DNA of 64,000 nt from Rhytidiadelphus loreus. Lineage: Eukaryota > Streptophyta > Bryopsida > Hypnales > Hylocomiaceae. The position numbers and the translations under genes were made by a program. Positions within the stretch are counted from its first letter, which is position 1, and each line of letters opens with the position of its first letter. The stretch spans positions 36,808,760-36,872,759 of the forward strand of contig OX344762.1 in assembly GCA_947034895.1 (NCBI GenBank), written 5' to 3'. This document shows, one piece after another, positions 4,957-40,578 of this stretch. Under the pieces are notes generated by a model that was not told the DNA's origin, searched no databases, and saw nothing but the letters and a program-made list of their open reading frames with translations.

Positions 4957-5036
4957 TGTGACTATTCAGCGGTGCTAGATTGTGAGCCTGTGAGCATGAG
5001 CCCAAGAGCGGTGAGCGGGGATTATGTGAGCGGTGA
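4957..5036 (+). repeat. MULE-1 left target duplication and terminal inverted repeat
   Basis: Target duplication TGTGACTATT at 4957-4966, terminus from 4967. The terminus is followed by a run of GAGC words at 7-10 bp spacing (TGTGAGCCTGTGAGC and onward to 5033), also present at the other three MULE ends. A subterminal ATAACCGTGG lies near 5155, matching ATGACCGTGG at the other ends; these may be transposase contact sites. Confidence 0.85.
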
Positions 5037-5463
5037 ATTCAGAATTAGAAAATTATGAAGAAAAGACAATTTTGGGCTCCAAATAGACAATTATTTTAAA
5101 AATTTGTGGTCAATTACTACTTTGAAGGTTTAGAATGCCTATTATTGTGGACCTATAACCGTGGAACTATTTAGGTGTACCGATTGCTATAGACATATTA
5201 GTAGGGACTTTTAATCGTGGTTTAGAGTGAATGTTTGTAGAATTGATTATTGTCAGTATGAATTTAAATAATAGGGTATACATTAAAAAGACCAGGCACA
5301 AGAGTATATTAAAACCAAAATTGATATTTGAAATAGTTTGTATTGAGTACATTTCCAAATAGTATTCACCCAAACAGATAGTGATCATACTGAAGGTATA
5401 TCTCTAATTTCAGTCTACAATTTCTAAATTTGAAATACCAATCATTCAAGTACTATTGGTCTT

Positions 5464-8400
5464 CTAGGCTTGTTCACAACTGTCACTTGAATCCTTGATG
5501 ATACCAGCCCTAATGAGAAGCAACTTCACTTCATTGAAGCTAAAGCTTGGAGAGTGTATGAACTTGTCGACTAGTGGATTCATCTTGCAGAAATAACGGA
5601 ATAAGTAGTAAAGATGTTTGCAACTCACATACTGATGCCGACCACCAATTGCAGAGACGGCCATATCTACAAAATCAGGACAAGTGCACTCAGAGTACAT
5701 GCCAAGTGTGATTCGATAAATCTTTTGTGAAGGTTCCGCTCCAGATTGAAGAGTGATAATGGCTCCAAGTCCGGGTAAAGGGAGCATTGTAACCCCCAAA
5801 ATCAATCCTTTTACATTACCGGCACTCTCCCATTTATTGCGATGCTCTGTAGTTGGAGCATTTCCATTACGGCGAATGGCCTTGCTCCTTCGAGTTGTTG
5901 GATATGTGTCCGCATTAACCGGACTACCTTCATTGTAAAAGTGCACCTTAAAGACATTTGACATTGTAAACAACCGTCGAGGTGACATAGGTGGCCGCTC
6001 TTGCAGTTGAAAGCCGGCTTCTTGTAGTAGCAGAGTTTCTTGGCGAGTCAGATTGGTGTGACTGAGCACTGGCCACACGTCTGGTACTTGGGGCCAATCA
6101 ATAACCCAAGGACGCCTAGAGCCTCTTACGCATCGTTCAATGTCATCTGGACAGAACCAGAAGTCCGTCATGATCTCCTTGTTTCCGCCATATTGTTTCT
6201 TGCGACCACGATACGTTGGGGCTGGAGTACCTTTAGAACCCTTAGCGATTCTGGCAGTGCAACGAATGTTTGTTCCTCTCTGTTGCGCGTGACATTTACA
6301 GCTTGATTTATGAGACAATCTTGCAATGTGCCATTGTGTAGTATCACAGTCACTCTCCATTGCAGTTGAGACGTGCGGTATATGTGGCAAGTGAATGACT
6401 GCGGCTGCTTCATTGGAAGCCATTGCGGGTGTACATGTTGATCGAATTTGCACTCGTGGTTGAGAGAAGTTGACCTTATCCGGACGATGAGAATCACCAT
6501 CCGACCCGATAGGTAGGTCGAGTTTACGTTTGCTACTGCCAAACACTTCTTCGCCTTCCAAATGTGGAATACGTGTTCCAACATCACTTGGGCCAGGCAG
6601 GTCATTCAAAGCCTCTGCAATCTTCTTTGGGTCGCCGCTTCGTCTGGCGCCTCTCAACTTCAACTCCTCTTTTGATGGCCCTGACCTTGATGTTGTACCA
6701 TTCAAGAATGCTCGATAATTCGTCATTTGCATGAAGGCTCGGATACAGTCATCACAAGTCGCGGCAAACAAATCATTACCACGATTACCGGATTGCTGCA
6801 ACCACTTGTTGTGAACTGTTTCCGATAAGTTGCATGATGGCAAGTCTGCTATTTCTTCGAGACTCAACCCCTAAAAGAAAAACACATGTATAGTTAGGCA
6901 TGGCATGTAGACATATAAAAAAAAAAAAAATGTTGGTAGACCACGTCAATTTTGATCACCATAGAAAGAGGTCAAGAGTCCCCTCGGCGCCGAGGGGACA
7001 GTCCTCCATGGCTCCACTCCCTATACTGATTAGACTTTTAAATAAATTAGAAATGATAATTCTAGGTGCCCAGAAAATAAGAATGACGTAGAATTGGTTC
7101 TGTGTATACAAATGAATAAATGAGATGATAAAGGGTGTACAAGCAATTCATATATCGATTGAGAAAGGACATCTATTGAAGTACCATTTGCATGAAGCCG
7201 CCCCATTGGCGATATTGGAAGTGCCAAAATGCAAGCCACAACTCCAATTCCCTCAAAGCCTCCTCTGAAGCTGCTCCCGATGATAGCCACCAAGAGTGGA
7301 TTGCCAAGTACCGCGTCTCCGCTTCCTCCATAGTCTTTGAATCCTTGTACTGCTTGCAAAGACGACTGTGTTGGTGTTGCATGTTTGGTTTAATGAGCTT
7401 CTGTGTATGGCGGTGTAAGGAAGTATTCCAATGCAGGAGACATGTACGTTCACGATTCACCATCTCTATTTTAGAATCTCCTGTACCATACACAATGCGA
7501 ACGGCATTCCAATTTGCTTGTGCACTGTCAGCCATAAAGCCCTTGAAGTTTGGATTTGGCACTCCGTTGCGTCTCATGACCTCGTTTAAAGACCTCCACA
7601 TAATGCTCTGCACCTCAGTATCTTCGGATTGCATGTCACAGACAGCAATAGTCATGACCTTCCTACAACCCATATCATAGACATGGCATGCCATAGTTGT
7701 CCAATCCTTCACCCGTTTGACGTGGTCAAACATGACCCATGCATTCTCTAAATCTCCACCGGGTTGCATGCGCTTCACCAAGTCTACTCCACTTCCAGGA
7801 CCTTCTACCAACATCTTAAACAAGTACACCTTATCTTTCCCTTGCCCAGGGAAGACACTGTCATGAATGTAGTCAAACTTCAAATTGCGCTTCATATTCA
7901 TAATACTATCAATAACTCCACCCTTTCCTGAGCTACGGAAAGAAGTAATGATATTACGGATGTTAGGAGAACTTAGTCTTTGGAACCTATCCATGACGTC
8001 CTCTAACGATTTTCCTTGTAACAACTCTTTAGGCCCTTCACCACTGTGTATCAAGTGACTGTCTAGAAATTGCTTACTAGCTGCGAGTGCAATGGCTGAG
8101 TTAGTAGCAGTAGGAGTTTTCGCAACCTCGCTAGCGATAAGACCGGAAATAGTATCTAAAGACTCTCTACACTCTCCAGAAGCTACAGGATGCATGTGAT
8201 TCCCTAAATGAATGCATGCTCTCGTCATCAACGCATTATCGCTAAACACGTAATATATTCTAGCGTCACACATACTAACACAACTTGGCGGATCTTTGCA
8301 TATCTTGCAAAGAATACTTGATTCTTTTGGGGCATCAGAGCCAACTTGAAATGGAGCAACAGTATATCCGCACCACTCTGTCTCGTTCCGCTTGGAGAAC

Positions 8401-9344
8401 CGTTGGAAGTATGAACAGTCAGAATTAGTACATACCAGATGACCCGCACAAGATGATTTTCTGAACTTCAACCCATCGTCGTTGTGGATATTAGATGTCA
8501 TGGTGCGACACCAAACATGACCATCGTATCGTTTATCCATCCCTTGAAGATTACCCCTACTACATGACGAAGAAGAGACACGAATTGATGGCAATTCGAA
8601 TACTACGTCTCCATCAAAGGCTGCAGGAAGGTACTGCACTTTGTGGTGGATTAGTGAATTGTAATCTAATGCAGCAACTTCATTCCTCGATCTTCGAACT
8701 GATGCAAGATTCCTTAGGCACCCAACTATACTAGTCGCTCCAATACTATTTGGATACGTCGGTGGACGAGAGCGAGTTGAAACCGGAAGACTATCGGATG
8801 GTGTACTGTATGTACCTGAAGCAGTTCTGTGGCCACCTTCATGTACTTCACTAGGAAGCATTGCTTCTACACGCGGCTGGCTAGGGGACTCTCCCTCTGA
8901 TTCACTAGATATATCAATGACAGGATCAAGGACTTCTTTCTCCATCTTAATATGATCAGGTGGTGTGCTAGTAATCGTGAAGGGCTGTCGTCCCAAAGAA
9001 TTATCAACATCATGTCGAGCAGGAGGCATATCAACGGTAGAATGATCTGACCGATGATGTACAATGGCTGTGGAGGCACCCATCATGAGAGACGACAATC
9101 CGTAAGCTCTGTAGCGACCACGACCAAGGTGCCAGACATGACCGTCCTCGACTTCTATCCTTAGCATGTGGACATACTCCTTCAATTGACCTGAATCGAA
9201 CATGACCTCCTCTTCAACATATATACTGGACTGGAGAAAACCAAAACGGACATGAAGAAGGTGTGAAGACACTACAGCATATCCTTCTATTCCAAGAGGA
9301 AGGACAACTGGAATTTCATGACCATCTGCACGAATAGAGGCCAT
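5464..9344 (-). CDS. Gene A (MULE-1): MULE-type transposase with SWIM zinc finger
   Basis: Two exons, 9344-7185 and 6870-5464, with a 314-bp intron (donor GTACTT, acceptor TTTTAG) join in phase to give about 1188 residues with no internal stop. The ATG at 9344 is chosen because MASIRADGHE aligns with MACIRVDGHE of A'. Features in order: a SUMO-interaction-like VIDISSESEGE near residue 142; clustered Cys and a final HMH (about 290-390) resembling a WRKY/GCM-type finger; a MULE DDE-like core with Asp in MFDHVKR (about 540), Asp in FMADSAQANW (about 606), then CLLHW and candidate Glu near 690; after the intron, a conserved SCNLSETVHNKW; and a SWIM finger CTC...CKH at about 1115-1139. By family it would cut and move the element in the nucleus. 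It is the most intact gene of the window. The intron holds the MULE-1 palindrome. Confidence 0.88.
6978..6999. promoter_or_regulatory. 22-bp perfect palindrome in gene A intron
   Basis: This is a perfect palindrome with centre TCGGCGCCGA and arms GTCCCC/GGGGAC. The same centre recurs six times in the first intron of gene B (11708-12290). MULE-2 carries the related centre TCGGATCCGA at the equivalent intron of A'. The role is unknown; it could be a protein site or an RNA hairpin. Confidence 0.75.
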
Positions 9345-10409
9345 CGACAGAAGATGGAGGATGAAGCCCAAAGAGAGATGGAGGACTAAACCCCAGACAA
9401 TATAGGAGATGGTGTGACTGAATGGGGTTCATATGTATACAAGATAGAAGCACGAGAATGACGTTTAAGAGGATATGATGAATGCTGGAAGTAAAGTTAA
9501 TAAGATATGTACAGACGTTGCTGATACAGATATTCCAAAAAGATTGAGGGCAGGCAAGGCGTCTCACATACCTAACTCATAAACAAGAGTTAGGCACAAA
9601 CTAAAGTACAGGTTAGGTGTCAGTACATGAGGGGCGCACTCGCAATTCCTATGCAACATCAATCCCGTTCATAGTACCCATCGAAGGACCCAGAAAATTC
9701 ATTACATCAGTCCGAGACTTAACTGCATATATCTTCAAATATGTCATCAAAGCATTCCTGTGTAAAACTAGAGTTGGACAACAAGAAATTGGATATTACA
9801 ATTCAAAAGCACCTCTATGTCAATAATGATGGTCTACCAATCATTCAATATAGAAATCTAACGACAACAAAGATCAAATCAAGAAAAAATCAATGTAATT
9901 CAAAATGTCAGATATATGCAAATCTTTTTTAGGGACAAATTTCTTAAACCATGAAGAGTGCCCTAAAGACATCTCTTAGTGTTAATTGCACTGTACCTAC
10001 AGAACATCCCTACTACTCTAATTAAAGTAGCATGACAGAGGGGTTAGATCTTAGAAGGAATAACCGGTTTAGGTGGATCTTCAAATTTTATAACGACCAC
10101 CATGAGTTTTCCATTATGGAATACATAATGGTGATGAGTACAGAAATATGGGATGTCAGATTTTAAAAAATTTGAAATTACAACTTCAAGATGATTATCA
10201 CAAGAAACCGTACTTCCAACTATCTTATAAAATGAAACCGAAACTGAGCATTCCTCAATTCTAGTGGACATGGTAGGACTTACTTATTATTGAGAGTAGC
10301 ATGTATATTATGTGAAGTAGTTGGAATCCATATTTCTGTATGTATCTCTATATTCTTATAGATTCATATCCATTTTCTTAGTTCATCTGCAATATGTGCA
10401 ACTAGTCTC
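9345..10409. other. Divergent intergenic region between A and E
   Basis: It should hold the promoters of A (leftward) and E (rightward). I see no clear TATA box. A short open frame on the minus strand (10271-10044, 75 residues) and another on the plus strand (9617-9826) have no counterpart in MULE-2 and are not called. Confidence 0.45.
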
Positions 10410-10783
10410 ATGCATGCTGCAAGAGGCATTATCGAAAGTGATGTAGAACATAGGATTAGGAAGAGGAGGAAACGAAGGAAACTCCTATATTCTTCGCGGA
10501 AACAATTGCTACGGTCTCGACGAAGAGGCAAGATTGTTCTAGTAACCACTACAACAATTCTGCAGGGAACCTCCACACTAGATGTAGAAAACGATTATCT
10601 ACTAGCTGATAGTACACATGGAAGTCACCGGGAGGCATCAAACATTGGTGAGGAGACATTGGCACAGTGCAGCCTAGGCTCAACTTCTAATTTCTACGTA
10701 AGTGAACATTTCTTGGGAAATTTTGTCAAGTCAATATTGCAATGGTTTAGGATATTTCTGATGTACTACAAATGTACAATTGA
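10410..10783 (+). CDS. Gene E (MULE-1): small basic protein, probably short or truncated
   Basis: A plus-strand exon 10410-10697 (96 codons) ends at a GTAAGT donor in phase 0. A possible second exon 10751-10783 follows a 53-bp intron and ends in TGA. The stretch RKRRKRRKLLYSSRKQLLRS aligns with KRRSRRRSLYFSSSRELRRS of the MULE-2 protein, which also has a phase-0 GTAAGT donor and a short intron. The location between A and B and the orientation with B are the same in both elements. The N-terminal 60 residues of the MULE-2 form are not found upstream. The basic tract suggests nucleic-acid binding or nuclear targeting; the function is unknown. Confidence 0.5.
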
Positions 10784-11504
10784 GAATTATCAAATCCTCA
10801 TGGTACTAGAAAATCCCTTACATCTCACAATAACATGAATTGTAGGTTGTTAATATATATGAAATCGTGTTGAGCACTGAAACATCTCTAACAACAGAAT
10901 GTCCAGATTAATTTCAACTGATTCATATTTACAAAATAATGGTTAAGGAATTTAAAACATTGGGAACTATAAACTACCTCCCTGCCCAATGAAATGGTAT
11001 TCATACATGTTGAGTATTCGTATCATGTACTACCGTACAATGGGCGTATTTTGGGGATTACGGTAATTCTAGATCCCTAGCTCATGTTTACTCTAGATTT
11101 TACAGAGCACCCAAATAAATGGATTTCCATGTGCAATAAACCGATTTCAATTAATGGTGAAGGAAGGGTTACATAGTATGATAAAATAAATGAAGACCGA
11201 ATTCGAGGAAGGTCTCTCGATAGGTAGGAGGAGGTCAACGACTACGGCACTGTGGATGAGGTCATTGGGACACGGGCTCGGGATGGGGTCTACGTGCCGA
11301 CCACACCTACCTGGTCACATTCGTTCGAGCCGGATTATTCCAAGGTTTTGTTGCGCCGTGTTGCACCCTTGCCGGTCAGTCTGCTTGAGATTAGGTTATG
11401 TTGGTAAGATAATTTCCTCCTGATCGAGTTCGGCATACATTCAAATTTTTCAGTCCCCTTCGTCTTGCGCTTTTGTTTCCCTTTTTTTGTAGAAAGTGGA
11501 GGCA

Positions 11505-14500
11505 ATGGCGCGAAGACCGGCCACTCGACGAGCGGCAATGGAAGGTCATCAGAATCAAGCCGATGGAGGCGGAAGGCGGGACGACGCAGGAATCCCTCTT
11601 GCGAACAACGAACCAGAATCGGAGACGATGTACCCTGTAAGTACCCTGATCAATTCTCTCCGCTTGTACTGAAGTTGAATACCCTCGATTACCCTGACCC
11701 TCGCTAACCCTCGGCGCCGACGGGAGAGTCCTGATCATGGCGTTGCGGGGAGGGTGGCTGAATCCTTGAAGCCCGAGCCGCTCGCTTGACCCCAGCTGCT
11801 GCCCTCGGCGCCGACGGGAGGAATCTGTGCATGGGGGAGGGGCTCATGGACTGCCCAAATCTTCTGTCCCATCGCCCGAAGCCTTGAATTCCGAGCTGCT
11901 CGCTTGACCCCAGCTGTTGCCCTCGGCGCCGACGGGAGGAAGCTGTGCACGGAGGAGGGGCTCATGGACTGCCCAAATCTGCTGTCCCATCGCCCGATTC
12001 CTTGATGTCTGAGCTGCTCGCTTGACCCCAGCTGTTGCCCTCGGCGCCGACGGGAGGAAGCTGTGCATGGGGGAGGGGCTCATGGACTGCCCAAATCTGC
12101 TGTCCCATCGCCCGAATCCTTGATGTCCGAGCTGCTTGCTTGACCCCAGCTGCTACCCTCGGCGCCGACGGGAGGAAGCTGTCCACGGAGGAGGGGCTCA
12201 TGGACTGCCCAAATCTGCTGTCCCATCGCCCGAATCCTTGATGTCCGAGCTGCTTGCTTGACCCCAGCTGCTGCCCTCGGCGCCGACGGGAGGAAGCTGT
12301 ACATGGGGGAGGGGCACACAAGGTCTTGCCGAAATCGAGAAGCTTCCCCGACTGAAGCTGTTGGTTGTGAGGATAAAACCTGGACGTGGCCTCTCGATGT
12401 CTCTGGCAGCTGGATCAATACCAAATTTACCCTAAATGTTAATGCATTTTCTTCTCGTTTCGGCGCTGATGAGATCTGGATCATGACCCTGGTGCTCGAG
12501 GTTGAGTGTCAAGGGCACTGGGTGGTTGTCCCATACATTAATTAGGTGATGTTGGGAGGTTTGGGTCAAGCATCAAAGCCTCTGTTTTAGTCATCCACGA
12601 CGTCAATCCAGTTCAGATCCTAAGAATCATGCCTCGATGCCTGGGAGCCGAGGGGAAACTAACGGGGAACCAACTTTGAGTTATACAGATCTGTAATATG
12701 ATCTGAGTAGTGATTGTTCGATTTGTATACCTTTGATTACACAGTGAGTTCGGATTTAATAATGAATTCAGCATCGATCTTCATGACCAGTAGTCCCCAT
12801 TACTGACGTCATTTTTTCCTGTAGGAGGTGCATGCTCAAGTCGACAAGCCTATGTCAGAGTCCGCGGAGGGTGCGCAGCCAGTGTCGCTGGTCGTGGAGG
12901 GTGCGGAGCCTTTTTCCTAGGCCGTGGAGGGTGCGCAGCCTGTGTCCCAGGACGTAGAGGTTGAAGAATGTGGTGGAGACCAAGGTGAGGAGGAGAGATC
13001 CATTGACGACGACTCTGAGAATACCAATCGTGACTTCACCACGAAGGACGCATTTCGGAAAGCGCAGAAAGTAAATTCTGTTGCATCCATTGGCACATTG
13101 AGATTGAAGCCACACTCCATATCTCGTCTCCGCATTCCTCTATGCCGACTTTCTCAGATGCCGATGGTTCGTCCTGCTCTTAAATGTGACCTCATACGAC
13201 TTGAGCAGGAATTTGTTCACGGTTACAGAGATGGATCATCTGTATTTTACGTATCCGCCACTAACGAGCAGGGAGAGACACAACAAGTTTCTGAGGCCGA
13301 GAAGGATGCCTGGGGTCCTATATGGACTGCCGAGAATGACGATTTTGATGCCATACTGAATGCAACACCCGGGTTGGCCCACTTGCAAGGCTCCAAGTTT
13401 TTTGTGTGCGATGGGAACCACAGGCTATTGGCGTGGTCATCATACATTTTGAAACATCATGCTGGTGACAAAGATTGGCACATTTCTGTCGACTCTATAA
13501 TTTTGGAGACCAAGGGGAGAATTGGGGACGTCATGCATGCTATGCATGATATCAACAAGTACGTGCAATTGATTTTCTTGTATTATTTTATATCTGTCTC
13601 TAGAACTATTTTTGTATGTACTAATCTTCTTCTGTTGTTTTTGAAGGCAAACAGAGAATTCGTTTATAAAAACAAGTCTTGTACACACGTTATACCGTGT
13701 CCAGAAATATGGAATTCTTCCTCTTGAGAAGTTTGCCGAGCATTTGAGTGCTTCGGAGATGACACAATGCCAGCAAAATACGCGAAAGAGCTGGTACACA
13801 ATGTCCCTGGAGGTGTTTATGTCATTTATTTTTCGGGTAAATATCTTCATTGATCTCATTCATGAAGTGATCATTTCCTAATATATTCCTTTTACTATGC
13901 TAACATGCAATTGGTTTTGTAGTATGAGATAGCGGCAGCTTCTGATACAGCTGTTCGAAAATACAAGGAAGAGACTGTGATTGAGGATCAGTCAGAGGAA
14001 GGAGTTTTGACTGCTATGCGTCATGGTACCAAGGAGCAGACTTCAAAACTGATTTAGAAGCTGGGCAAGATGACAGCGGTTGCAAATCCGAATTTAGGGA
14101 GCGAGTGGCTCAAAGAGGTATAATCATTTTCTGTATAGACTTCTTCATCTGATTTATCTTCTTTTGTAATGATTTTAATATAAATGTTTTGGTTAAACAG
14201 ATTGAGCGCCATTGGAGCTCCAATATAGTTCCCGAAATGACCCTTGACAAGTTGCAGATGATTGCTACTTGCAACGTCAAGAGTGAACACAAGGTGAGGT
14301 GGTTGAAATGGTGGAATTCTTCAGTTCAAACGCGAGAGGCTAGACGGTTTCCTCTGAAGCTAGTTGAAGAGAATGACTTGAAGTCATTCTTGACAAAGGC
14401 TTGCTGGTATGCCGGGGTATGTGTTACTCATTACTTTACATTCCTCTATATTCTTTCAGTCCTTGCTATTCGTTATGTCATTCTAAATGGTTTTTTCGAA

Positions 14501-17293
14501 TATCTCTCATGCATAGAATTGAACTCCTTCCATTGCGCAGATTGAAGACACCGGTTTCGAAATGTTTGATGACATTGTGAAGAAGGATCAGTTGGCATTG
14601 TCTATGGATTCTCCCACCGAACCAGACAGTTTCGTTGATTACATTGAAGGATGGAAAATTAGAGTGTGGGACAAGGCGTTCTTGTCCAATTTTAAGGGGC
14701 AAGACGTGTTCAGGAAGTCAGATGACTTCAAGAGACGCAAGGACACTGATCTAGTTGTAAAGCGTGCAATTTACCGGTATATATTATTTCCTATAATTCC
14801 ACACTTCATTGATGGTTGTTGTTATCGTCAAATCTTTGACACCATTTTCCTTAGACTGATCCAAATTTTTTGTACAGGTACTTCAAATATGAGCTCCTTC
14901 CAAAAGGGGCCATATTGAAGCGAGATCTTCCTCCTTTTCTCGGAACATGGTTGGATATCTCCTCCGAGCATTGCATGTTCTCAGCCTCGCAGCTAAAGTG
15001 GTGGACTAGCTCACATTTGAAATCCGGCGCTTGGTATTTGGACTGCCCACCAGAGTTTACACCGCCATCGGAGGAGCACCTCAAACAATCCAACCATTCT
15101 CATGAGGTTTCTCAAGACGGGAACGACTTCGTCGGACTTGATGAAGATGCCAAAGCAAGGGCTTTGAAGAAGAGAGAGGAAGTTGACAAGAAGATAGCAT
15201 TGAAGAACTCGGAGGCAGTGGAGAAGGCAAAGGAGAGGATCGCTAAGAAGGCTGCAAAACTTGCTGAAACTGGGGAGGCATCTGCAACTAAGCAAACAAA
15301 GGGCAAAAAGGGTAAACAACAAATTGTGCCCTCTACCACTAAAGACGAGGGCTCTCATCACCAGCAATCCGTTTCACGAGGTACCAAGCGTGATGTTGAG
15401 TACATTTCACTTAGCGATGGTGGCATGGTGCACGGTCCCTCAGCTGTGGAGGTCCTAAATGACTTAGAGATTTCGATCCACGAGTTGATTCTTAATTTTT
15501 CACTACAACATGTATTGGGTGATCCACTACCCCAAGTGTACCACAACGTTTTGAGTTTTGTTGATAAGGTTAGCACTTCACTTTCCTTCATTAGTTTTTA
15601 TTGAAATTTGGTTGGTAATTGAATATACTTTTCTGTACTGATTACCATCACTTGGTTGCAGCACAAAGGAGACAAACTTCGATTTTTCAAAGGAGTGAAG
15701 AGTGATAAACCACGCATTGATCTCATAATTGCAGACATGCCAGAGGGATTACCTGTCCCAGATTTGTCGGTGCCTGTGACTAGCATTCCAAAATGGAATG
15801 TGGATGACCCTCTTTGGTTGGAGTCGGTGTTTGAATTTGCAGATGGTCACCTGCATGACGATGGAGCTCTCATAATTATCTATCCTTTGAGGGCCATTAC
15901 TAAAGCCACTATTCTCAAGTATGGTACTACTTACTCTTTTGAGAAGATGAAGGACTGGTGGGGAATGAACTGGCTACATTTGGCCTCCCCGGTTTGTATC
16001 TCAAGAACGGTATATGATTTTTCAATTTCAATTTTCAGTTTATCGTATTTGAATTGCATGCCTTCATTTGTTTTAGTTACTATCAATTTTAATTGAAGTT
16101 GTTGCATTCCAATTATTCTCATTCCGTGGCCGCACTCTAGTTTGTGCAAATTTCTTAATTGAGTTCATTCATGCAGACACAACGATTTGGGATATCATTG
16201 TTGGTGAGGAACTTCTCTGGGATTGGCCCTTCCAAGTTCAAATTCCAACCATGCCCGACTTTGAAGAAATTAGGGGTGGATGTAGCCCGAGACGATGTTC
16301 TACAGAATTTCACGAAAGTAGAGACATTGAGTATGGACCGGAACTCCAAGCCTTGGAGAGGGGCACGAGAAAAGGATCCTCGATTTCTGCAAATGTTGAT
16401 TGAAGCATGCTCACTCCCGAACGATGTTGTTCTAGACTGCACTGCTGCAACAGGTTATATCAAATGCCTTCACAACGTATTTTATACAACCCTTATTTCT
16501 ATTTTGTCTTAGACTCTATCAATTTTGTTTATTGACTTGATTGTTGTGTTATATTGGTGGTGCTATTAGGTGCCTCCATCCATGCTTGCAGGATTTTGAG
16601 TAGGCACATTGTTGCACTTGAGGAAGACAAAGGCATCTTTGATGCAATTTTGGCCCCAATGATTCGCATATCTCCAAGTGCTCCAACATCAACCCCAGAA
16701 ATTGTGGAGAATTTTGACGATGATGACTCTCTGGAAGTTGATGTTCCCCACATTGTCAAGAAATCTCGATTCAGTAAGTAAGTCTATCCAGTACTAGCAT
16801 TTTCAGTATATGTCAAAGTCATCTTCTTAACCATTATTAAAAGTTCACTTTCTACTTCTGTTCATTCCATTCAACCCTATGCAATGGATTTGCATATAAT
16901 TTCTAATTTTTTTCGGTTGATTGCAGCATGATTTCTAAGAAGGCTGGTCATCGCCCTTTCTTCAGTTTACCTAGTTTTTTCCCAAGCCCAGAGAAGACAT
17001 TCATGTTGCCGTCGTATGCAGAGGCTTTAGCTTCAACATATGCATGTCAACCCAATGCTCCTGTGAAGAAGAATTCAAGGTCAATAGAGCCACGAGTCTT
17101 GCAATTCGTAGACGTCATAGCCTTAGAATCAGACAATGAGACATCATTGTCTCATAGTAGTGATCACTCTCAGTCTATGTCATCATCTATTCATCTTCTA
17201 CTTGATTCATTTTGGGTTTGCATTGCACTACTTGCCATTCATTTTATTGTCTATGATATGTTATTTTCTACCCATTTGTCATCAACATTCTAG
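11505..17293 (+). pseudogene. Gene B (MULE-1): ParB-like plus methyltransferase-like protein, two in-frame TAGs
   Basis: The exons I place are 11505-11636, 12825-13558, 13647-13836, 13923-14117, 14201-14416, 14541-14776, 14878-15568, 15662-16009, 16177-16453, 16570-16777 and 16927-17293. All junctions keep phase and most exon lengths equal those of B'. The product would be about 1197 residues. It begins with a basic MARRPATRRA segment. A ParB/sulfiredoxin-fold-like FFVCDGNHRLLAW lies near 236-246, and a Lys/Glu-rich linker follows. A region where an N4/N6 methylase has DPPY shows IADMPEGLP near 823, and the SAM-site-like LDCTAATG with following helix lies near 1000. The order catalytic motif then SAM motif is that of beta-class methylases. 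In-frame TAGs at 12918-12920 and 14055-14057 suggest a dead copy. The C-terminus runs past the B' stop into a hydrophobic tail, which may be stop loss. Confidence 0.7.
11700..12320. repeat. 118-bp tandem array carrying the TCGGCGCCGA palindrome
   Basis: CCCTCGGCGCCGACGGGAG recurs at 11708, 11802, 11920, 12038, 12156 and 12274. The last four intervals are 118 bp and the first is 94 bp. Each unit nests the palindrome inside C-rich and G-rich arms (CCCCAGCT before, AGCT..GGGG after). The array lies in the long first intron of gene B, between the MARRPATRRA exon and the 12825 exon. Open frames across it are products of the repeat and are not genes. Confidence 0.85.
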
Positions 17294-19600: not shown

Positions 19601-19647
19601 GCTCGCAGGCTCACAGGCTCACAAAATAGCAACCCTGTGTGACTATT
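19590..19647 (-). repeat. MULE-1 right terminal inverted repeat and target duplication
   Basis: Reading inward on the minus strand from 19637: CAGGGTTGCTATTTTGTGAG followed by CCTGTGAGCCTGCGAGC. Target duplication TGTGACTATT at 19638-19647 repeats 4957-4966. Confidence 0.88.
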
Positions 19648-21070: not shown

Positions 21071-21126
<56 letters not shown>

Positions 21127-21130
21127 CATA
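21071..21130. repeat. TA dinucleotide microsatellite
   Basis: An almost pure run of TA repeats, ending TATGTATATACATA. Confidence 0.95.
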
Positions 21131-23517: not shown

Positions 23518-23570
23518 ATTTTTCAGCAGGGTTGCTACCGTGCGAGCTTGAAAGCATGAGCTTGTGAGCG
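23518..23570 (+). repeat. MULE-2 left target duplication and terminal inverted repeat
   Basis: Target duplication ATTTTTCAG at 23518-23526, then the terminus with GAGC words (TGCGAGCTTGAAAGCATGAG). Confidence 0.88.
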
Positions 23571-26936: not shown

Positions 26937-27009
26937 GGGGGTCCACCAAGTACTACTCTAACCATTGTCGGATCCGACAGTGGACTGGCTTGGTACCATA
27001 GGGACCTCC
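26937..27009. repeat. Nested palindrome, copy 1 (B' intron)
   Basis: GGGGGTCC... centre GTCGGATCCGAC (26967-26978) ...GGGACC. Outer arms GGTCC and CCAAG pair with CTTGG and GGGACC. It lies in the intron 27139-26767 of gene B'. Confidence 0.75.
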
Positions 27010-29401: not shown

Positions 29402-29833
29402 CTCCGAGTCGGAGCTAATATGAATGATGACAACCTCCTGTCTACCTTGAACTTGGCTAGAGTCACACATGTAGAAGTCCTCTATTGCTGGACCATCAAT
29501 AGTGATGGAATCCTGACTGTTTGAGCTGTATTCAGTTTCGGAACTCTTAGGAGACATGAATGGTCTCATTGGATCCCTATTTCTAGCCATCATCATGACC
29601 CTATCCAATCGCTCACGACGTCTGCGCGCCCCTGGGTCACTCACCCGACTCATTACTGAGCTCTCAAAGGCATCAACTACTCGATCTGCGGCATCCATAA
29701 CATCAGAGAAACTTACCACATCTTCTTTCTCAATTTCATCGTCTTTTCCATCACTGCAGATGTCCATGGATGTATTTGCCGGTGTGAATGGTTGAGATGG
29801 ACCCTCTCCATGATCAGGTGGAAGATCATCGAG
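29402..29833 (-). CDS. Ser/acidic exon with SUMO-interaction-like motif, probably part of B'
   Basis: An acceptor TTTTTTGCAG precedes LDDLPPDHGEG and the frame runs 144 codons to a possible GAG/GTGGAT donor in phase 0. That fits both the first exon of B' and the exon at 29155. If the donor is not used the frame ends at TGA 29381-29383 after VDVDID, giving a short alternative product. The end, VVIIHISSDSE, has the form of a SUMO-interaction motif: a hydrophobic core followed by acid and serine. The middle has an Arg-rich ARRRRERLDR. No counterpart was found in MULE-1. Confidence 0.5.
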
Positions 29834-30452
29834 CTGCAAAAAGGGTACTGATGTGCTCACTCCTCACCCTCCCTGTTTTTCAAAAAACAAATTCCATGAA
29901 TTCTATTTTTCAAATAAATCATTCTAGTAGGACAAGACCAAGAAGGCACTAACTTGGAAAGACTAGCTTTTGATGAAAACTCTTATCATGAAAAGCGATA
30001 ACGATAAAACAATATTTTGCCCAAAGAAATACGCTCATATCAAGGCCTTCTATAGAACTGACATGAGAATTTGATGACCATGAATGACGGTCATACATGG
30101 GAATAATGAAGACAACTATAAGGCGTCTATGACAAAAATTAGACAACTAAGACGGTCATGAGTCAGATCTTTAGTCTCAATCATAGGACCTCCAAAAAAA
30201 TAAAGTACTTACATATTAAACACAAAAAATTAGTGACTGCGTTAGTAGTAGAAATACATGCATATTGTTATTAGTTTATTGGACCACTACATGATCAATT
30301 AACAAAAGCTAGCATGAATCCAAAGAATAAGATTGCTTGCGAAGACGTGAATGCATAATCACAGAAGCATATGTACAGGCCCACTAAATTTTGATGAACA
30401 CAATTTTGAACACAGACTTTCTAAAAAAAAAGGGTCATGAAAGTCATATTTT

Positions 30453-30526
30453 GGGGGGTCAAGTAGATTGAGCCTATATGACCGTCGGATCCGACAGTCA
30501 AGTGGCGGCAATTTCGATGACCCCCC
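30453..30526. repeat. Nested palindrome, copy 2 (B' first intron)
   Basis: GGGGGGTCA and TGACCCCCC form the outer arms. The centre is GAC-c-GTCGGATCCGAC-a-GTC (core 30484-30495). Confidence 0.85.
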
Positions 30527-30761
30527 AAAATTTGTAGCTCCATAACTAAACCTCGAACATCAGCACAATTTCAAAATCCAAGAAGAATGAAAGCTCAGAG
30601 AATATGAACAGACATTCCATGAGTACTCGCTAGGTCGGCTATTTTGGATGCACAAAAGTCCTATAATTAAACACTAATGTAAAGCGTAAAGCCAGAAATG
30701 GCCCGGATGTGGATTTTCATCATGATCAAACGGGTCTGGTGAGAACCACCTTAAGGAAATT

Positions 30762-30835
30762 GGGGGGGTCAAGCAAAGATAATTGAATCAAGTGTCGGAT
30801 CCGACACTAGGATTACCTAAAGCCGTCCGACCCCC
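30762..30835. repeat. Nested palindrome, copy 3 (B' first intron)
   Basis: The centre GTGTCGGATCCGACAC is perfect over 16 bp (30792-30807). The outer arms are GGGGGGTC and GACCCCC. Confidence 0.85.
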
Positions 30836-31154
30836 AAGAATTCTACAACTTCACCCTATAATTTCAGATTCTGAACCCCTGCATTCCAAAACCGTGGGCA
30901 GCTAGACAGTCCGCTCAAGCAAACATAGCCAATCGAGGCAGAAATGCACATACCAGTTAAAAAACAAATCCCTAAACCAGACATGCAGTCAATTGGGACT
31001 CGAAGCTGCTTCATCGAGCTTCAACTTCCAGGCCGTCGTTGGAATATTGATCGCCTTGTGGAGTGCAACCAGCTACAGACGAGCCTATTCAACGCGGCAA
31101 TGGAGTATCGATGCGTATTCACAGAAGCGTGAAAACCAAAGAAATGTCAGTTTT

Positions 31155-31225
31155 GGGGGTCCTGCTGATTCACGGAAGAAGACTGTCGGATCCGATGGTC
31201 ACTCCGGTGGAATCAGTAGGACCCC
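31155..31225. repeat. Nested palindrome, copy 4 (B' first intron)
   Basis: The outer arms GGGGTCCTGCTGATTC and GAATCAGTAGGACCCC pair with one mismatch. The centre is TCGGATCCGA (31186-31195). Copy 5 lies about 432 bp away in a similar context, so the two share a local duplication. Confidence 0.85.
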
Positions 31226-31587: not shown

Positions 31588-31659
31588 GGGGGGTCTTGTA
31601 CATTCGCTCAAGAAGACTGTCGGATCTGATGGTGAGTCTGTCCGAGTGAACAGGACCCC
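31588..31659. repeat. Nested palindrome, copy 5, decayed centre
   Basis: Same layout as copy 4, with centre TCGGATCTGA (31620-31629, one change) and outer arms GGGGTCTTGT and ACAGGACCCC. Confidence 0.75.
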
Positions 31660-33512: not shown

Positions 33513-34125
33513 TCATTTAAAGATGCTAGCCAAAGAAGTAAAATGATTTTTCAAACACTCGAGGATCTGTCTCTGATCCATAGAGTCCTTGAAAAAAAAA
33601 TTTGAAGAAGATATAGCAAATACAGAAAACACAAGAGAATAATGTACAGCAACTGTAACTTACATTTGCATTGTCTTCTTGTCTCCTTAGATGTTGACCC
33701 TGTGTTGTATCCACGGAAATCTCCTGCACTTCATCCAAGTTGTTCACGCCCTCATTGTCCTCCTCGCTCGTACCTCCAATACCAAAGTGCAACACTTTGC
33801 AAAGGTCATCTCCAGTAGAATTACTTGTCTTCGACACAAGCTTCTTCCCGCGGGTCATTCTAGATCTTCTCAATTCTCTTGAAGATGAAAAATACAAAGA
33901 CCTACGCCGACTCCTTCTCTTTGTGAACAACTTGCGAGATGTAGACGTGACAAACTGCTCTACAAGCATGAGGAAGATCACTTCAAAGAGACTCTCCGTC
34001 GACTCAACTCCGGTGCAAGCAAGACCCCAAACTGTGAATGCCTCTAATGGGAAGAATGCCATCTTCTTATAGTCTTGAGGGAGACAACATGAAGCATTGG
34101 GTACCCTATAGTACACTAGGGCCAT
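33513..34125 (-). CDS. Gene E' (MULE-2): small basic protein
   Basis: Exon 34125-33664 (154 codons, ATG start) ends at a GTAAGT donor in phase 0. A 76-bp intron ends TTTTTCAAG, and exon 33587-33513 adds 24 residues to a TGA, giving 178 residues with no internal stop. The N-terminal third is hydrophobic and aromatic (FEVIFLMLVEQF), followed by an Arg/Ser/Lys tract (KRRSRRRSLYFSSSRELRRS) and an acidic tail (TSEEDNEGVNNLDEVQE). I recognise no family. Its position beside A', its direction with B' and the likeness of its basic tract to gene E in MULE-1 argue that it is a genuine third gene of the element. Confidence 0.65.
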
Positions 34126-35089
34126 GACAGAGTTCTTTCAAGGCAGTGGCTACGTGGTACAAAACAAATGGCTCACGCGTCGCGAAAATAAAACGTGTAC
34201 TTGATGCGAATTTCAAAGAAGCACTGACACTTCGATGGATGTGCAATGGAATGGAATAGGCGGAGAAACTTGCTATGTGACTGTTGTAATGAAGTAAACA
34301 CAGATTTCTAAGAAACCTTGACACCTTGGAGGATGTGCACTGCAATTGAATAGGCGCCACAACATAATTTCTGACTGTTAATAAGAAGGTGAATCAAATT
34401 TCAAACGAACCCTGACACCTCGCTTGATGTGTTATTTTATGAAAGAGCCGTCAAAATTGAACTTCTGACTGCTATGAAGAACGTGACGTGGAAGTGTAAA
34501 AGAACCTGACTTCCACCTGGATGTGCCAAGGTATCTACAACGCGGTGAAGCTGAATTTCAAATCGTTATAAAGAAGGTTACGCCATTTGTAAGACAACCT
34601 AACACCTTTCTGGATGAGTAATGGTATCAAAGAGGCGCCGAAATTATATTTCTGACTGTTGTAAGGAATGAGGCCATAATGGGTGTGGATGGTGGTAGCG
34701 GACAAGGCTATGTTGAACGGATGCACATGGTAGGTAAAGTTTATTGTACAAAAGGGAAATGGTAGGGGGATACTCATAAATAGATACAACTGACGGCCTT
34801 CTTCAAGAATTCTATTATCTTTGGCTTTTGTAGGTGGTAATATATTGGCCGGTTGTAGACGGTGACACTGTAATGATCATGGCGGCCAATATTTAAGCAG
34901 AGGAAGTATATAAAGGTCCATTTTGCAAGACAAACAATTGACTACAAGACTGGTAGTACTAAACTCTACTTTTGTATATGTGTTGATGATAGACTCTCTA
35001 GGGGTACAGAAGTTCTATTCTTCTTCATATTATGCTTAGGACTTAGTCCGAGACTTCTCCTTTCACACTTCCGTTTATGATTTCTGAAG
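34126..35089. promoter_or_regulatory. Divergent A'/E' intergenic region with TATA box for A'
   Basis: TATATAAAG at about 34907-34915 sits about 175 bp upstream of the A' start codon and is a good core promoter candidate. No clear box is seen for E'. Loosely repeated CTGACACCT/CTGACTGTTnT sentences occur at 34.2-34.7 kb. Confidence 0.6.
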
Positions 35090-38000
35090 ATGGCTTGCAT
35101 TCGAGTAGATGGTCATGAGGTACCTCTTCTTTTTCTGATGGAGGACAGAGGACACGCTAGAGTTCTCAGTCATCTTCTGCACGTCCGATTTAGATTTGTA
35201 GAGAATTCCATCTATGTTGAAAAAGAAAGGATGTCGGAGTCGGGCAAAGTCAAGGAGTTTGTCCCCATCATTAAATCTGCGGAAGATGAAGGTCACTGCT
35301 GGTACCTTTTGCCAAGGAACTATAGAGCATACGGACTTCCTCTTTCTATGGTCAATGCTTCCATTGAGATTTTGAGTTGCCAATCAGATAATTCAACAGT
35401 AAATATGCCGTATACAGTCAAACCTGTTTCACCTAATGTAGGTCTTTCAGCTTCTCCGGTCCTTATGAAGCCTTCATTACTTCATGTTGTGAAGGTAGAG
35501 AAATTAGATCCAATCATAGAACTATCTAGTGAATCGGAAGGAGAGTCTCCTCAGGTGATTCTAGAGAATATAGGAGGTTTGATCGGAACTAGAACTGAAA
35601 AGAAGGTTGTATTGGATTCAATATCTAACAGCCCTTCGAGCAATCAAGTGCAATCTATAATGCCTCGGACTCCGTTGCATCCATATCCAGCTTCCAAAGT
35701 TAGCATAATGGATTGCTTGCGGAAACTAGCCAACATGCGTCGATCTCGGAATGAGTTGTCTACAGTGGATCTGAACATTATGAAACACCATCATGTTTTC
35801 TTTCTTCCAGTCGTTTATGATGGAGATGTCATCTTTGAACTGCCACCGTGCCGATCTACTTCATCTTCATCAGCGGCGCGGAGCTTAGAAGGAATGGATA
35901 AGCGCTATGATGGACATCCGTGGTGTAGGGTCATGACTACAAACATCAGCAACTCCGACAATCTCAAGTTCCGTAAGTCTCTCTGTGCTGGCCATCTTGC
36001 TTGTATGAACCCGAACTGTGATTACTAAGCAAGATCTTCCAAGAAGAATGAAACAGAGTGGTCTGGCTTCACATCATTTCCTTTTGCAGTTGGAAATGGT
36101 CCTCCTAAAGACTCTACTCTAGTTTGTAAGGTGTGCAAGATATCACCTTCATGTCTTCACACTTGCACTGCTAGGATGTACTATTGTTTTGGTGATAATC
36201 CAGAAATGAGTAGGGCTGCTATTCACTTTGGAGAGCACAACCACCCGGTTGCGAAGGGGATGTACAGAGATTCCACACAGGAAATCTTTGGACTTCTAGA
36301 AGAGCAAGTTTCCAAAACACCGTCGGCCACAAACTCCGCAATTGTACTATCTGCTAGTAAAGAGTTTCTGACTAATCATCTATTTCACAACGGAGAAGGA
36401 GAGAAGAAGATGCTGAAGGGGGAGGAAATGGAAGAAGTGATGGAACGCTTCCAATATCTTTCATCTCCAAGTATTCGGAATGTGATCTCGTCATTTCGCT
36501 CAAACAATCGAGGAGGGATCATTGACAACATCATGACAATGAAGAAGGAGTCGAAGTTCGAATTCATACATGACAGCGTCTTTCCAGGTCAGGGCAAGGA
36601 GAAGGTTTACATTTTTAAAATGCTCACGGAAGGACCTGGAAGTGGAGTGGACCTCGTCAAGCGCATGCAACCAGGAGGGAATCTACAGAACGCGTGGTTG
36701 ATGTTTGATCACATGAAGCGCGTGAAGGATTGGACCGCAATGGCTTGCCACGTATACGATGCCGAGTACAAAAAGGTGATGACCATTGCAATGTGTGATA
36801 TGCAATCCGAAGATACCGTGGTGCAGATACAGTTTTGGAAGAGTTTAAATGCTGTCATGGAGCAACATGGAGTGCCTCAGCCAAACTTTAAAGGATTCAT
36901 GGCAGATAGTGCCATGGCCAATTGGAACGCTGTCCGTATAGTTTACGGAAATGGCTCTGCCAATGAGGAAATGGCAAATCGTGAGAGAACATGTTTGCTG
37001 CATTGGAGTAGTTCTCTTCATAAACACACCCAGAAGTATATCAAAGAAGCACTTCAACATCAACATATTTCTCTGTGTAAACAGTACAAAGATTCCATGA
37101 ATATGGACCAGGCAGAGACACGATACAGTGCAATACGATCTTGGTGGCTATCATCTGGAGTTGCAAATGAAGAATCGCTTCATCACTTAGACCATTGGCT
37201 AGCATTCTGGCATTTTCGGTACCGGCAATGGGGAGGCTTCATGGACATGGTGAGTGAATTCATTAGTTCAATGTTTGCAAATATATTTATTTGAGGAGAT
37301 GCATTTATTATATACAACCCAAAACCTGTATTGCTTCATGTAATTTTCTGTAATTTACAGTTGTTGACAAAATATAAAGAAACCACTTTATTTTTTTTTA
37401 AGTTGTTGATAATTTTTTTTAAAGTATTCGAATTGTGGTGGTCCCTCAAATACTGAAGATACATCCGTCGGATCCGACGGTTGTTTTTTTGGTGTTTGGT
37501 GAACCTCTTGATTTTTTCAACCTCGAATACAACTTCAAATTAGTAGGAGTACAATTTCTGAATGTCAGTATGGCCTATATTTTCCTATATGAAGAAATTG
37601 GGTAAATATTCTGTTTTTTTCTTTTGATATAGTAATATATTTCTAAATGAATTTTTCTTTGACTGTCCTTCATTTCATAAGAGGATATATTAAGTGGATC
37701 ACAATTGAGTTTGAAAATACGAAAGTCTGTTAAGTTTATAAAGTGAACTGCTAACTAACCCTTGTACTTGCTTGAATATGTAGAAATTGAATTTAGAAGA
37801 GATGCTGGACTTACCGTCATGCAATTTATCCGAAACGGTCCATAACAAGTGGCTGCAAATGTCCGGGAAAAGAGGTAACAACTTGTTTGATGCCACTTGT
37901 GACGACAGTATTCGTGCTTGGATGCAAATGACGAACTATCGGGCCTACCTTAGAGGTCATGCATGTGGTTCTGGTCCTTCCAAGGAAGAATTGAGGTTGA

Positions 38001-39172
38001 GGGCTGCCACACGAAGCAGAGATCCAAAGAAAATTGCAGAAGCATTGAACACTTTACCTGGAGCAGAGGGGCTTGGAAATCGTGTACCGCATTTGGAAGG
38101 AGAAGAAATCTTTGGAAGTACAAAGAGGAAGTTAGATGTACCCATTGGAGATGCTGGAGATTCACACAGACCAGATAAAGTGAATTTTAGTCAACCGCGG
38201 GTGCGAACGAGGTCTACAACAACTTCTAATGACATCTTTCAAGAGAAAGGTAAAGAGCCGGACGCTAACAGTTCTCCACATGTCACTATTGCGTGCGAAA
38301 GTGACTGTGACATATCGAAGTGGCATATTGCAAGGATTAGCCACAAATCGAATGCAAAATGTCACGCTCAACAGAAAGGGTCAAATATCAAGTGTACTGG
38401 CAAAATTGCAAGGGGAAAGAAAGGAACTCCAGCTCCAACATATCGAGGTAGAAAAGTAGAGTATGGAAGTAAGCAAGAGGTGGTGGTGGACTTCTGGTTT
38501 TGTTGGGATGATATAGAACGATGTGTCAAAGGCTCAAAACGGAAGTGGATAATAGATTGGCCGGAGGTGCCAGAGGTTTGGCCAGTTCTATCAGGAACAC
38601 ATCTCAATCGGGAGGAAACTTTGATCTTACAACATGTAGGATTCCAACTCCAACAACGCCCTACACTGTCGCCTCGTCGACTTTTCAATATGTCAAAGAT
38701 TTTCAACACTATTTTATTTGACTAACCACCACCAAAGAATCCAGATGTGTATCCAACGGTTAGGAATAGCCGAAACATTCGAAGGATTGCAAATGCACCA
38801 ACTACAGAACAACGGAATAAGTGGGAGAGTGCAGGAAACATTAAAGGTCAAATTCTGGGAGTAACCTTAATCCCCAATCCGGGTTTAGGTGCAGTAGTGT
38901 CACTAGAGACAGGGGCAGATCATAACAAAAACGTCTATCGAATTACAGTCGGCCTATTTCCCATGTGTACATGCCCAGACTTTGTAAATATGGTTGTTTC
39001 TACTATTGGAGGTCGACAGCAATATGTAAATTGCAAACACCTGTACTACTTGTATAGGTACTTCTGCAAGATGGACGTGAATGAAGACAAATTCATTCAT
39101 GCACCCAGTTATAGCTTCAATGAGTTGAAGCTACTTCTAGTTCGAGCAGGAATTATTACAATTCCCGAATAG
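35090..39172 (+). pseudogene. Gene A' (MULE-2): MULE-type transposase with two in-frame TAA codons
   Basis: Exons 35090-37249 and 37784-39172 (donor GTGAGT, acceptor ATGTAG) join at the same place as in gene A, after GGFMDM. Exon 1 has exactly the same length as in gene A (2160 bases). The order of parts is the same: PIIELSSESEGE, Cys/His-rich region ending HNHP, MFDHMKRVKDW, FMADSAMANW, CLLHW, SCNLSETVHNKW and a SWIM finger CTC...CKH near the C-terminus. In-frame TAA codons lie at 36026-36028 (inside the zinc region, between NCDY and ARSSKK) and 38723-38725 (after TILFD). The frame is otherwise open and closely conserved, so the copy died recently or is read through. The 534-bp intron holds a palindrome. 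Confidence 0.85.
37436..37505. repeat. Nested palindrome, copy 6 (A' intron)
   Basis: The centre CCGTCGGATCCGACGG is perfect over 16 bp (37465-37480), with outer GGTCC and GAACC arms. It occupies the intron equivalent to the one holding the MULE-1 palindrome in gene A. Confidence 0.85.
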
Positions 39173-40499
39173 GCATAGGCGCATTTTCAAATGTACTTCA
39201 TTTGTATGGTATTTATTTAAGTATACTTCGATTGAAATAACCCTAAACCCCTAATATTGAAAATAGGTAAGCTTTTTTTTGGGCCTTCATTCGTTTTTTG
39301 TTTTCCTCAAACCCTTATCTTCTATTCTTTTCTCTTCATTGTCCAGACTCGTAGCTTAATTCTTTATTGCATTCTGTATTTTTGTGAATGCACTGGGATT
39401 TCCATTTGTTCTAAGCGGAAAAAAGAATGAGTAGGTATTTATAAAGTATAGGAAATTGAAAACATGTCTCATAAGTCTCATTAGTACACTGTTGTAAGGT
39501 GAGTTCTTGCGAATTATCCTAAACCCCTATCTAGTATTACACTTATGAATATGAAAATCATTTTCACTGAATCCATCTCGTCGATTTTATTGCCCTACTT
39601 CACTTTTTTTCCTTATCTTTTCCTATTTTTTTTGTCTCTTCTTACTTTTTTTCCATTTCATTTAAATTTTTCTCATTTTTCCTTTCATTTTTCCTTTCCT
39701 TTTTCCTTTTTTTCCTTTTCCATTTTTTTTTCCTTTTCCATTTTTATTTCTTTTCCAATTTTTTTTCATTTTCCATTTTTTTTTCATTTTCATTTTTCAT
39801 TTTTCATTTTTTCCTTTCATTTTTCCTTTCATTTTTCATTTTTTTCCCTTTTCCCTTTTTTTTTCTTTCATAATTTTTTTCATTTCCCTTCCATTTGTAT
39901 TTCCATTTCTTTCTTGTTTTCCTTTCATTTGTAATTCTCAATTTTTATTTCCATTCAATTTCGATAAACCCTAAACCTTCTTTTCTTTTTTCTTTTTAAT
40001 CCACCTTTTTTTTCATTCATTTCATTCGTTGAGGTTCTCACTTTCTTCATCTTTTTTTCTAGTACAACGCCTTCCATTTCTAAACCCTAAACCCCTAAAC
40101 TTTCTCTTCTTCAATTTTGTACAAATTTTTTTAAGATGTGAACATGAGGTAGGATATTACAAATTTACAACGAGTCCTTGAAATTAATTTCAAAATTTTA
40201 AACTCTATATGCTAAGGCCTGCAAACATTGGAGTCATATGCCTACAACAATGATATGAGGTATTCATCTGAACGTACCCTTGAAGCTGTGGTATTCATCT
40301 GAACCTACAACTTGAAGACATAGAAAATAAAAAATTTAAGACAATAAAAATAAAAATTTAACCGAATCCACGGTTTTAGGAGCCACGGTCATAGGTCGCA
40401 ATACTTACTATAAATAGTAACTTTTTTTCTATTTTAGGCAATTTTTTGAAAACTTTCCTTTTTTAAACATCATTAACAAAATTTATATAATTTTGGATC
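39173..40499. other. MULE-2 right arm: pyrimidine tract and teloboxes
   Basis: Positions 39590-39960 are almost pure T/C on the plus strand (TTTTTCC and TTTTTCATT words). AAACCCTAA/AAACCCCTAA-type words occur near 39240, 39520, 39967 and 40083. The open frame across the tract is low complexity and not a gene. Confidence 0.7.
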
Positions 40500-40578
40500 T
40501 CTATGCTCGCAAACTTGACGCTCACAGCTCGCAGGCTCGCTGCTCCAAGCTCGCATGCTAGCGTCGTTGATTTTTCAG
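40500..40578 (-). repeat. MULE-2 right terminal inverted repeat and target duplication
   Basis: Reading inward from 40569 on the minus strand: CAACGACGCTAGCATGCGAG, followed by more GAGC words. Target duplication ATTTTTCAG at 40570-40578. Confidence 0.88.

Follow-up and report, generated by a model that had tools for sequence, protein, structure and literature searches.

In Ectocarpus, the transposon Sola1-1_Ec32 carries a 1104-amino-acid ParB-plus-methylase gene opposite its transposase, and the 2025 paper describing it, which also cites green and red algal cases, suggests that such accessory ParB-methylase proteins bind and modify their own transposon (PMC12477816). The VANC protein of VANDAL elements binds noncoding tandem repeats of its own elements and removes silencing marks (PMC10398659). 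For Mutator-like elements (MULEs), a review names PMD, FAR1, SET, an ovarian tumour gene and MutB as extra open reading frames (ORFs), with no methylase among them, and the terms methyltransferase and ParB are absent from its main text (PMC6446971). DNA methyltransferases have also been described in dinoflagellate LINE and DIRS elements and in charophyte Gypsy elements, including a Dam-like methylase in DIRS (PMC5890265). Here we describe a 64,000-nucleotide stretch of the genome of the moss Rhytidiadelphus loreus (the window; G000:C2:36808760-36872759) that holds two large transposons, element 1 and element 2, each with a predicted transposase gene (A) and, on the opposite strand, a long gene (B) whose product joins a conserved segment bearing the motif DGNHR to a methylase-like domain that has lost its catalytic motif. 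No report of a MULE with a ParB-methylase gene was found in the open PMC literature, searched mostly at the level of titles and abstract openings.

Recurrent elements with divergent A and B genes

The initial annotation of this DNA had proposed two elements with matching termini and target duplications of 10 and 9 bp, and both were confirmed, at 4967-19637 and 23527-40569. The termini are 22 bp long in both elements, that on the A side of element 2 being the more diverged, and the duplications fall within the 8-11 bp of Mutator/IS256-like transposons. Models of A and B were spliced by hand in the two elements in parallel, giving the following features.

4967-19637: element 1, A on the minus strand and B on the plus strand, bounded by termini and a perfect 10-bp target duplication
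4957..4966: left target duplication of element 1, TGTGACTATT
19638..19647: right target duplication of element 1
4967..4988, plus strand: A-end terminus of element 1, CAGCGGTGCTAGATTGTGAGCC
4984..5031, plus strand: phased GAGC boxes at the A end of element 1, at 18, 26, 32, 40, 47 and 62 from the end
19616..19637, minus strand: B-end terminus of element 1, CAGGGTTGCTATTTTGTGAGCC
19587..19620, minus strand: GAGC boxes at the B end of element 1, at 18, 26, 34 and 48 from the end
5464..9344, minus strand: gene A of element 1, two exons (9344-7185 and 6870-5464), 1188 amino acids, no in-frame stop
10362..10838, plus strand: E of element 1, a short basic coding-like ORF
12921..17293, plus strand: gene B of element 1, modelled with ten exons and a single in-frame stop in exon 3, 5' end provisional
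23527-40569: element 2, B on the minus strand and A on the plus strand, bounded by termini and a perfect 9-bp target duplication
23518..23526: left target duplication of element 2, ATTTTTCAG
40570..40578: right target duplication of element 2
23527..23548, plus strand: B-end terminus of element 2
40548..40569, minus strand: A-end terminus of element 2, diverged, GAGC boxes at 18, 25, 32, 40, 47 and 62 from the end
24566..29080, minus strand: gene B of element 2, likewise modelled with ten exons, 1,090 amino acids from the open-frame start, no in-frame stop within the model, 5' end provisional
29381..29863, minus strand: 160-amino-acid ORF of element 2 that may be a further, upstream exon of B
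33526..34137, minus strand: ORF at the E position of element 2
35090..39172, plus strand: gene A of element 2, exons 35090-37249 and 37784-39172, two in-frame stops

Because stops interrupt B in element 1 and A in element 2, neither window element is intact, and the damaged gene differs between them. For B of element 2, the stop met in aligned exon 1 is at 29083, just above the modelled frame, and Pfam returned nothing for the 160-amino-acid ORF at E values up to 1. The annotated plan of three divergent genes stood as far as A runs one way and B the other; E was rejected as a gene common to both window elements, the likeness between the two ORFs being not significant (BLASTP E 0.74).

Both ends of the elements carry boxes in fixed positions. 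In the terminal 110 bp on either side of 10 elements, GAGC boxes point inward (104 forward vs 2 reversed). At the A end, the positions 18, 26, 32, 40, 47 and 62 are exact in 5/10 elements, the deviations being an extra box in one element, one missing box in two, three missing in one and a 1-base shift in element 2; the B-end positions (18, 26, 32, 40 and 48) are more variable. A second end box, AT[AG]ACCGTG, has 17 matches in 10 delimited elements, all of them inward-pointing and 81-189 bp from an end, with none in the interiors.

The same arrangement was expected to recur elsewhere in the genome (407 Mb, 489 contigs), and it does. At least 61 scored matches to A exon 1 (among 1758 candidates, 73-100% identity) and at least 144 to B exon 1 (among 1495) were obtained, both match lists being partial, and for pairing these were taken as 60 A loci (two pieces joined) and 143 B loci (a second piece dropped). 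B lies divergently upstream within 12 kb at 52/60 scored A loci, and 53 of the 56 A-B pairs within 30 kb are divergent and upstream. The termini recur with their duplications as well: eight of 10 further copies that were fetched have exactly one terminus pair and a 9-10 bp duplication, delimiting 12.0-15.9 kb, compared with 3 matches in 90 cross-copy control pairs scanned over wider ranges, while two show no terminus pair within the 20 kb read. Genome-wide, the pattern of the B-end terminus has 391 occurrences, against 0 for its reversed control.

Purifying selection acts on both A and B. The exons that were sought, 11 in all (B without its last exon and any 5' exons), are kept in 12/12 elements, and in two of these elements they have neither a stop nor a split match. 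Relative to element 1, the ratio of nonsynonymous to synonymous divergence (dN/dS) of A is 0.11-0.20 in 9/11 comparisons, the others being a near-identical copy (0.43) and a saturated one, and that of B segments is 0.06-0.26 where copies are neither near-identical nor saturated; in the near-identical copy, B segments give 0.39-1.33 at dS 0.01-0.03. Between the two window elements, the synonymous sites of A and B are saturated at amino-acid identities of 62% (A) and 44% (B), in keeping with the long conservation of B across diverged elements on which the initial annotation had relied. E of element 1, matched in 8/11 other elements (10/11 with laxer scoring), evolves fast, with dN/dS of 0.34-0.86 in 8 comparisons and 0.17 in a near-identical copy. 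Counting saturated segments as high, 8/11 comparisons (c2-c8 and c10 against element 1) give the first two thirds of B a higher dS than A or the methylase third, a pattern that hints at recombination between families.

MULEs capture host genes, and B might likewise be a host gene captured and carried passively, in the manner of a Pack-MULE. Pack-MULEs are mentioned in the Ectocarpus paper (PMC12477816). The recurrence of B in the same divergent position and the strong constraint on it across deep divergence argue instead that B is a gene of the element, and we regard passive carriage as very improbable.

Domains of the B and A proteins

The only relative of B that was found is the moss protein P0003 (Ceratodon purpureus M758_1G295400; E 4.6e-111, 30% identity), in two protein-database searches that took only candidates of similar length sharing short words. 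Because this annotated protein aligns with the DGNHR part of B, with its middle and with its methylase part, it supports the splicing and exon order of the B models. The C-terminal third of B is a beta-class amino-methylase domain with its motifs in the order IV, X, I, II, as initially annotated. Its matches to Pfam PF01555 have E 1e-4 and 0.002, neither reaching Pfam's own cut-off; it also matches CcrM (E 2.8e-5, covering motifs IV to II), and six phage methylase families are matched by 3/3 B sequences (best E 1.8e-7).

The catalytic box of this domain has been lost. The exon with motif IV was located in 22 of 32 fetched stretches and in both window copies, and in 24/24 of these DPPY has become D-x-x-E or D-x-x-K, so that none fits the catalytic pattern [DNS]PP[YFW] and the aromatic residue is missing throughout. 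The fetched copies read DMPE, DMPK, DCPE, DCHE, DCPK, DCLE or DVPE, the window copies DMPE and DCQE, and the moss relative DTPF. The change is not random, as D-x-P-E-x-L-P-V-P is common to 14/22 fetched copies. METTL14, which has EPPL instead of DPPW, is an inactive partner subunit (PMC5023411), and with this precedent the degenerate motif IV suggests that B is probably a pseudo-methylase, catalytically inactive. The DNA-marking role first proposed for B finds no support in these copies. Alternatively, B might be an active N6-adenine or N4-cytosine methylase which, steered by its DNA-binding domain, marks the DNA of its own element, as the algal ParB-methylase proteins are suggested to do. This would fit the clear homology of B to CcrM, DpnA and phage methylases, and the two-domain plan and length of B resemble those of the Ectocarpus Sola1 protein (PMC12477816). 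The state of motif IV in every located copy, the conservation of the altered box itself and the inactivity of METTL14 with its EPPL (PMC5023411) all disfavour such an enzyme, which we consider improbable.

No part of B is more constrained than the DGNHR-bearing N-terminal segment (dN/dS 0.06-0.12, 7 comparisons). The initial annotation had read DGNHR as a ParB-like motif, but none of the profiles tried bears this out. Pfam, PHROG and PDB profile searches with B gave no ParB link; a whole-genome search with PF02195 (ParB_N) placed 5/5 matches on contigs C199-C308 and none at B; hhalign sets DGNHR on the ParB motif GERRxRA with a probability of only 0.08%; and tblastn of the P0003 DGNHR domain against phages returned no match. 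The AlphaFold2 (AF2) model of B, made from 3 sequences only, has a mean pLDDT of 39, too low for its fold to be judged. Following these profile results, the ParB assignment remains a resemblance in the DGNHR motif. The bacterial-type ParA-ParB genes seen on the high-numbered contigs C199, C234, C293 and C308 of this assembly, G000 (L044-L047), are probably bacterial contamination.

A is, by its predicted fold, a Mutator/IS256-type DDE transposase, nearest to the IS256-type ISCth4 (Foldseek E 5.1e-4) in a comparison that took in the fold families listed by VIA-align. In element 1, D568 and D634 (P0002 numbering) would be two of the catalytic residues, and CNLSETVHN in exon 2, picked by eye, would hold the third. 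A CxC...CxH finger near the C end was seen by eye in A1, A2 and P0004, while a profile search for a SWIM finger left A exon 2 without a Pfam match at E up to 1. The N-terminal part of A has a predicted ubiquitin-like fold, the kind of fold that PB1 also has. The designation of A as a MULE transposase thus survives at the level of fold and not at that of Pfam: A has no profile match to MULE PF10551 at E up to 10, and neither do 16 A-family members, one of which reaches E 0.18 to Transposase_mut. Neither a hidden Markov model of the core nor a profile comparison by hhalign (E 0.12) gave a significant match to this genome's own PF10551 loci.

Relatives of A number 52 in the protein database, chiefly nameless metagenome ORFs spanning the first exon. 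A single relative found in prokaryote genomes, on a 4.1-kb contig of a cyanobacterial metagenome-assembled genome, is probably stray plant DNA. A viral origin of A and B was also considered and rejected, scans of viral contigs for patterns of A and of B having given no relative.

Palindromes in noncoding DNA and a candidate role for B

The palindrome TCGGNNCCGA is present at 5-20 copies per element in 12/12 elements, 123 in total (two of the 12 being untrimmed 20-kb stretches), compared with Markov expectations of 0.04-0.13 on average and 2 at most per element. It is found zero times in 32 kb of window flanks and zero times in 26 kb of loci L001-L008. In an unbiased scan of 256 half-sites with spacings of 0-6, TCGGNNCCGA alone reaches at least 3 copies in 12/12 elements and in all six most diverged. 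In the window, 12/12 palindromes lie inside the two elements, as follows.

6984..6993: TCGGCGCCGA palindrome of element 1, inside CCCTCGGCGCCGAGGG and located in the A intron
11711..12286: six TCGGCGCCGA palindromes of element 1, at 11711, 11805, 11923, 12041, 12159 and 12277
11760..12315: array of 118-bp tandem units (4.7 copies), lying between E and B in element 1
26968..26977: TCGGATCCGA palindrome within a B intron of element 2
30485..31195: three TCGGATCCGA palindromes of element 2, at 30485, 30795 and 31186
37468..37477: TCGGATCCGA palindrome in the A intron of element 2

Tandem arrays with units of 85-127 bp lie between A and B in 11/12 elements (one with only 1.9 copies), and their units differ in sequence yet share the palindrome in 10/11, the array of element 2 being without it. 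The centre and flanks of the palindrome vary by lineage, with CCCTCGGCGCCGAGGG and near forms in element 1-like copies, a GG centre in one copy and an AT centre in element 2. In the whole genome, CCCTCGGCGCCGAGGG is found 146 times and its reversed control 0 times, while the 18-bp form of the element 2 palindrome has just 2 sites, so that a family-specific box rests chiefly on the element 1-type copies. Of the 33 CCCTCGGCGCCGAGGG sites on contig C1 and at the start of C2, 12 are inside a B-end terminus and no more than 1 kb from it (random 0.1%), 7 are separated from a scored A exon by 127-188 bp, and 13 are more than 20 kb from any such terminus or exon. Looked at from the ends, the exact 16-mer is within 1 kb of 11/100 listed termini. 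Four short loci chosen from these were also fetched. Two of them are complete derivatives of 1.07-1.14 kb, which have no room for A or B but carry both termini, the GAGC boxes and the palindrome and are flanked by 9-10 bp duplications; the limits of the other two were not found within 1.3 kb. In the derivatives at L049 and L050 (~1.1 kb), the TCGGCGCCGA box was seen by eye to lie within a longer inverted symmetry.

We favour, with a probability of roughly 0.55, a reading in which A works the ends of the element and an inactive, DGNHR-bearing B protein binds the element's own TCGGNNCCGA palindromes, as VANC does its repeats. The two elements belong to a large family of DNA transposons of the cut-and-paste type. 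A would probably recognise the phased GAGC boxes at both ends and insert the element with a 9-10 bp duplication. B, in which a highly conserved DGNHR domain is linked to a beta-class amino-methylase fold that is probably inactive, would bind palindromes in noncoding DNA, in the arrays upstream of B and in the A intron, and this binding may keep the element transcribable or aid its assembly. B is suited to such a VANC-like role by its setting: the boxes are lineage-specific and their arrays noncoding, and the protein itself has a conserved N-terminal domain and a methylase fold without its catalytic box.

Several observations weigh against this reading. Part of motif I remains in B (D-C-T-A-x-x-G in most copies), and the aromatic residue is present in the D-T-P-F of the moss relative, as it would be in an active methylase. 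Furthermore, 113/123 palindromes are located on the upstream side of the A start, the majority within the array that precedes B, and E is a basic, fast-evolving ORF. Those two points would suit an arrangement in which the TCGGNNCCGA arrays are bound by E or A, or are promoter parts of the divergent A and E/B, and B has no specific DNA binding but serves, for example, as a transposase cofactor; palindromes are, moreover, a common operator shape. However, element 2 has the palindrome though E is not recognisable there, and the remaining 10 sites lie in the A intron, spread over 9/12 elements and away from promoters. We therefore think this arrangement rather unlikely.

The bacterial parS site is a 16-bp palindrome, which makes a ParB-like loading model for B attractive but unproven. 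B and its boxes would then form a eukaryotic parS/ParB-like system, in which B, as a pseudo-methylase with site-specific DNA binding, loads on 16-18 bp palindromes (a TCGG-NN-CCGA core with family-specific centre and flanks), spreads or clusters, and shields the element from silencing or joins its ends. The centre and flanks would co-evolve with B and keep families separate, and short derivatives would persist by retaining the box. We put this proposal forward tentatively, at well below even odds.

Beyond the elements, the window holds inverted arms at 42258-46342 and 53090-57114 (4.1 kb each, 98.2% identical, 6.7 kb between), a RING-finger-like ORF inside the inverted-arm region (47656-48768; Pfam E 4e-5, below cut-off) and an ORF with a protein kinase domain (59250-60404; PF00069, E 1.8e-14). 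Repeats rich in GGGCGACTTCGGGT / GGGCGACCGCGGGT units lie near the kinase ORF, at 41555-41724, 52654-52787, 58320-58428, 61610-61778 and 63178-63400.

Comparison with known systems

Like Sola1-1_Ec32, the elements described here are giant DNA transposons with an accessory gene of ~1100 amino acids, and B shares with the algal ParB-methylase accessory genes a transposon-borne position on the strand opposite the transposase and a methylase domain, of the N4C/N6A kind. A ParB-like domain is reported for the Sola1-1_Ec32 accessory protein, whereas B has a likeness in the DGNHR motif only. The transposase there is Sola1 and here Mutator/IS256-like with 9-10 bp duplications, and B, compared with those accessory proteins by their description, differs in its nearest named relative being a moss protein, in its lost catalytic motif and in its palindromic arrays (PMC12477816). 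Sola1, EnSpm or green algal accessory proteins were not among the results of the two B protein searches, which returned only P0003.

VANDAL elements resemble the present ones as MULE-type transposons with accessory genes and with noncoding tandem repeats whose short motifs diverge between families (PMC10398659; PMC5735166). Here, arrays are found in 11/12 elements, with the box in the unit in 10 and in the element in 12/12. For VANC, anti-silencing was shown by experiment, whereas B is a methylase-fold protein that is likened to it by description. With Mutator-like elements at large, these transposons share 9-10 bp duplications, a DDE fold, a WRKY-like zinc domain and an antisense extra ORF, and the CxC...CxH motif read by eye in A may be of the SWIM type; the lack of a Pfam MULE match and the N-terminal ubiquitin-like fold set A apart (PMC6446971). 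The methyltransferase retrotransposons are likewise selfish elements with a DNA-methylase gene, and purifying selection is reported for the charophyte copies, but they are retroelements with cytosine or Dam-type enzymes, one of which is described as capable of de novo methylation (PMC5890265). METTL14 shares with B a methylase fold without the aromatic catalytic box; it is the partner of an RNA m6A writer, and no homology to B is claimed (PMC5023411).

The initial annotation had seen here a distinct lineage with an unusual partner. This holds in that a B-type gene rides on a Mutator/IS256-like carrier, and has to be narrowed in that ParB-methylase genes have already been reported in algal transposons (PMC12477816). 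This genome holds the B-type gene in great numbers, and selection acts on it with about the same strength as on the transposase. The candidate binding site TCGGNNCCGA, repeated in 12/12 elements far above chance and with no such site found in print, makes the function of such accessory proteins experimentally testable. The kind of system is thus already known, and what is new is its Mutator/IS256-like carrier, a moss-related B with a lost catalytic box, the fixed end boxes and the palindrome arrays.

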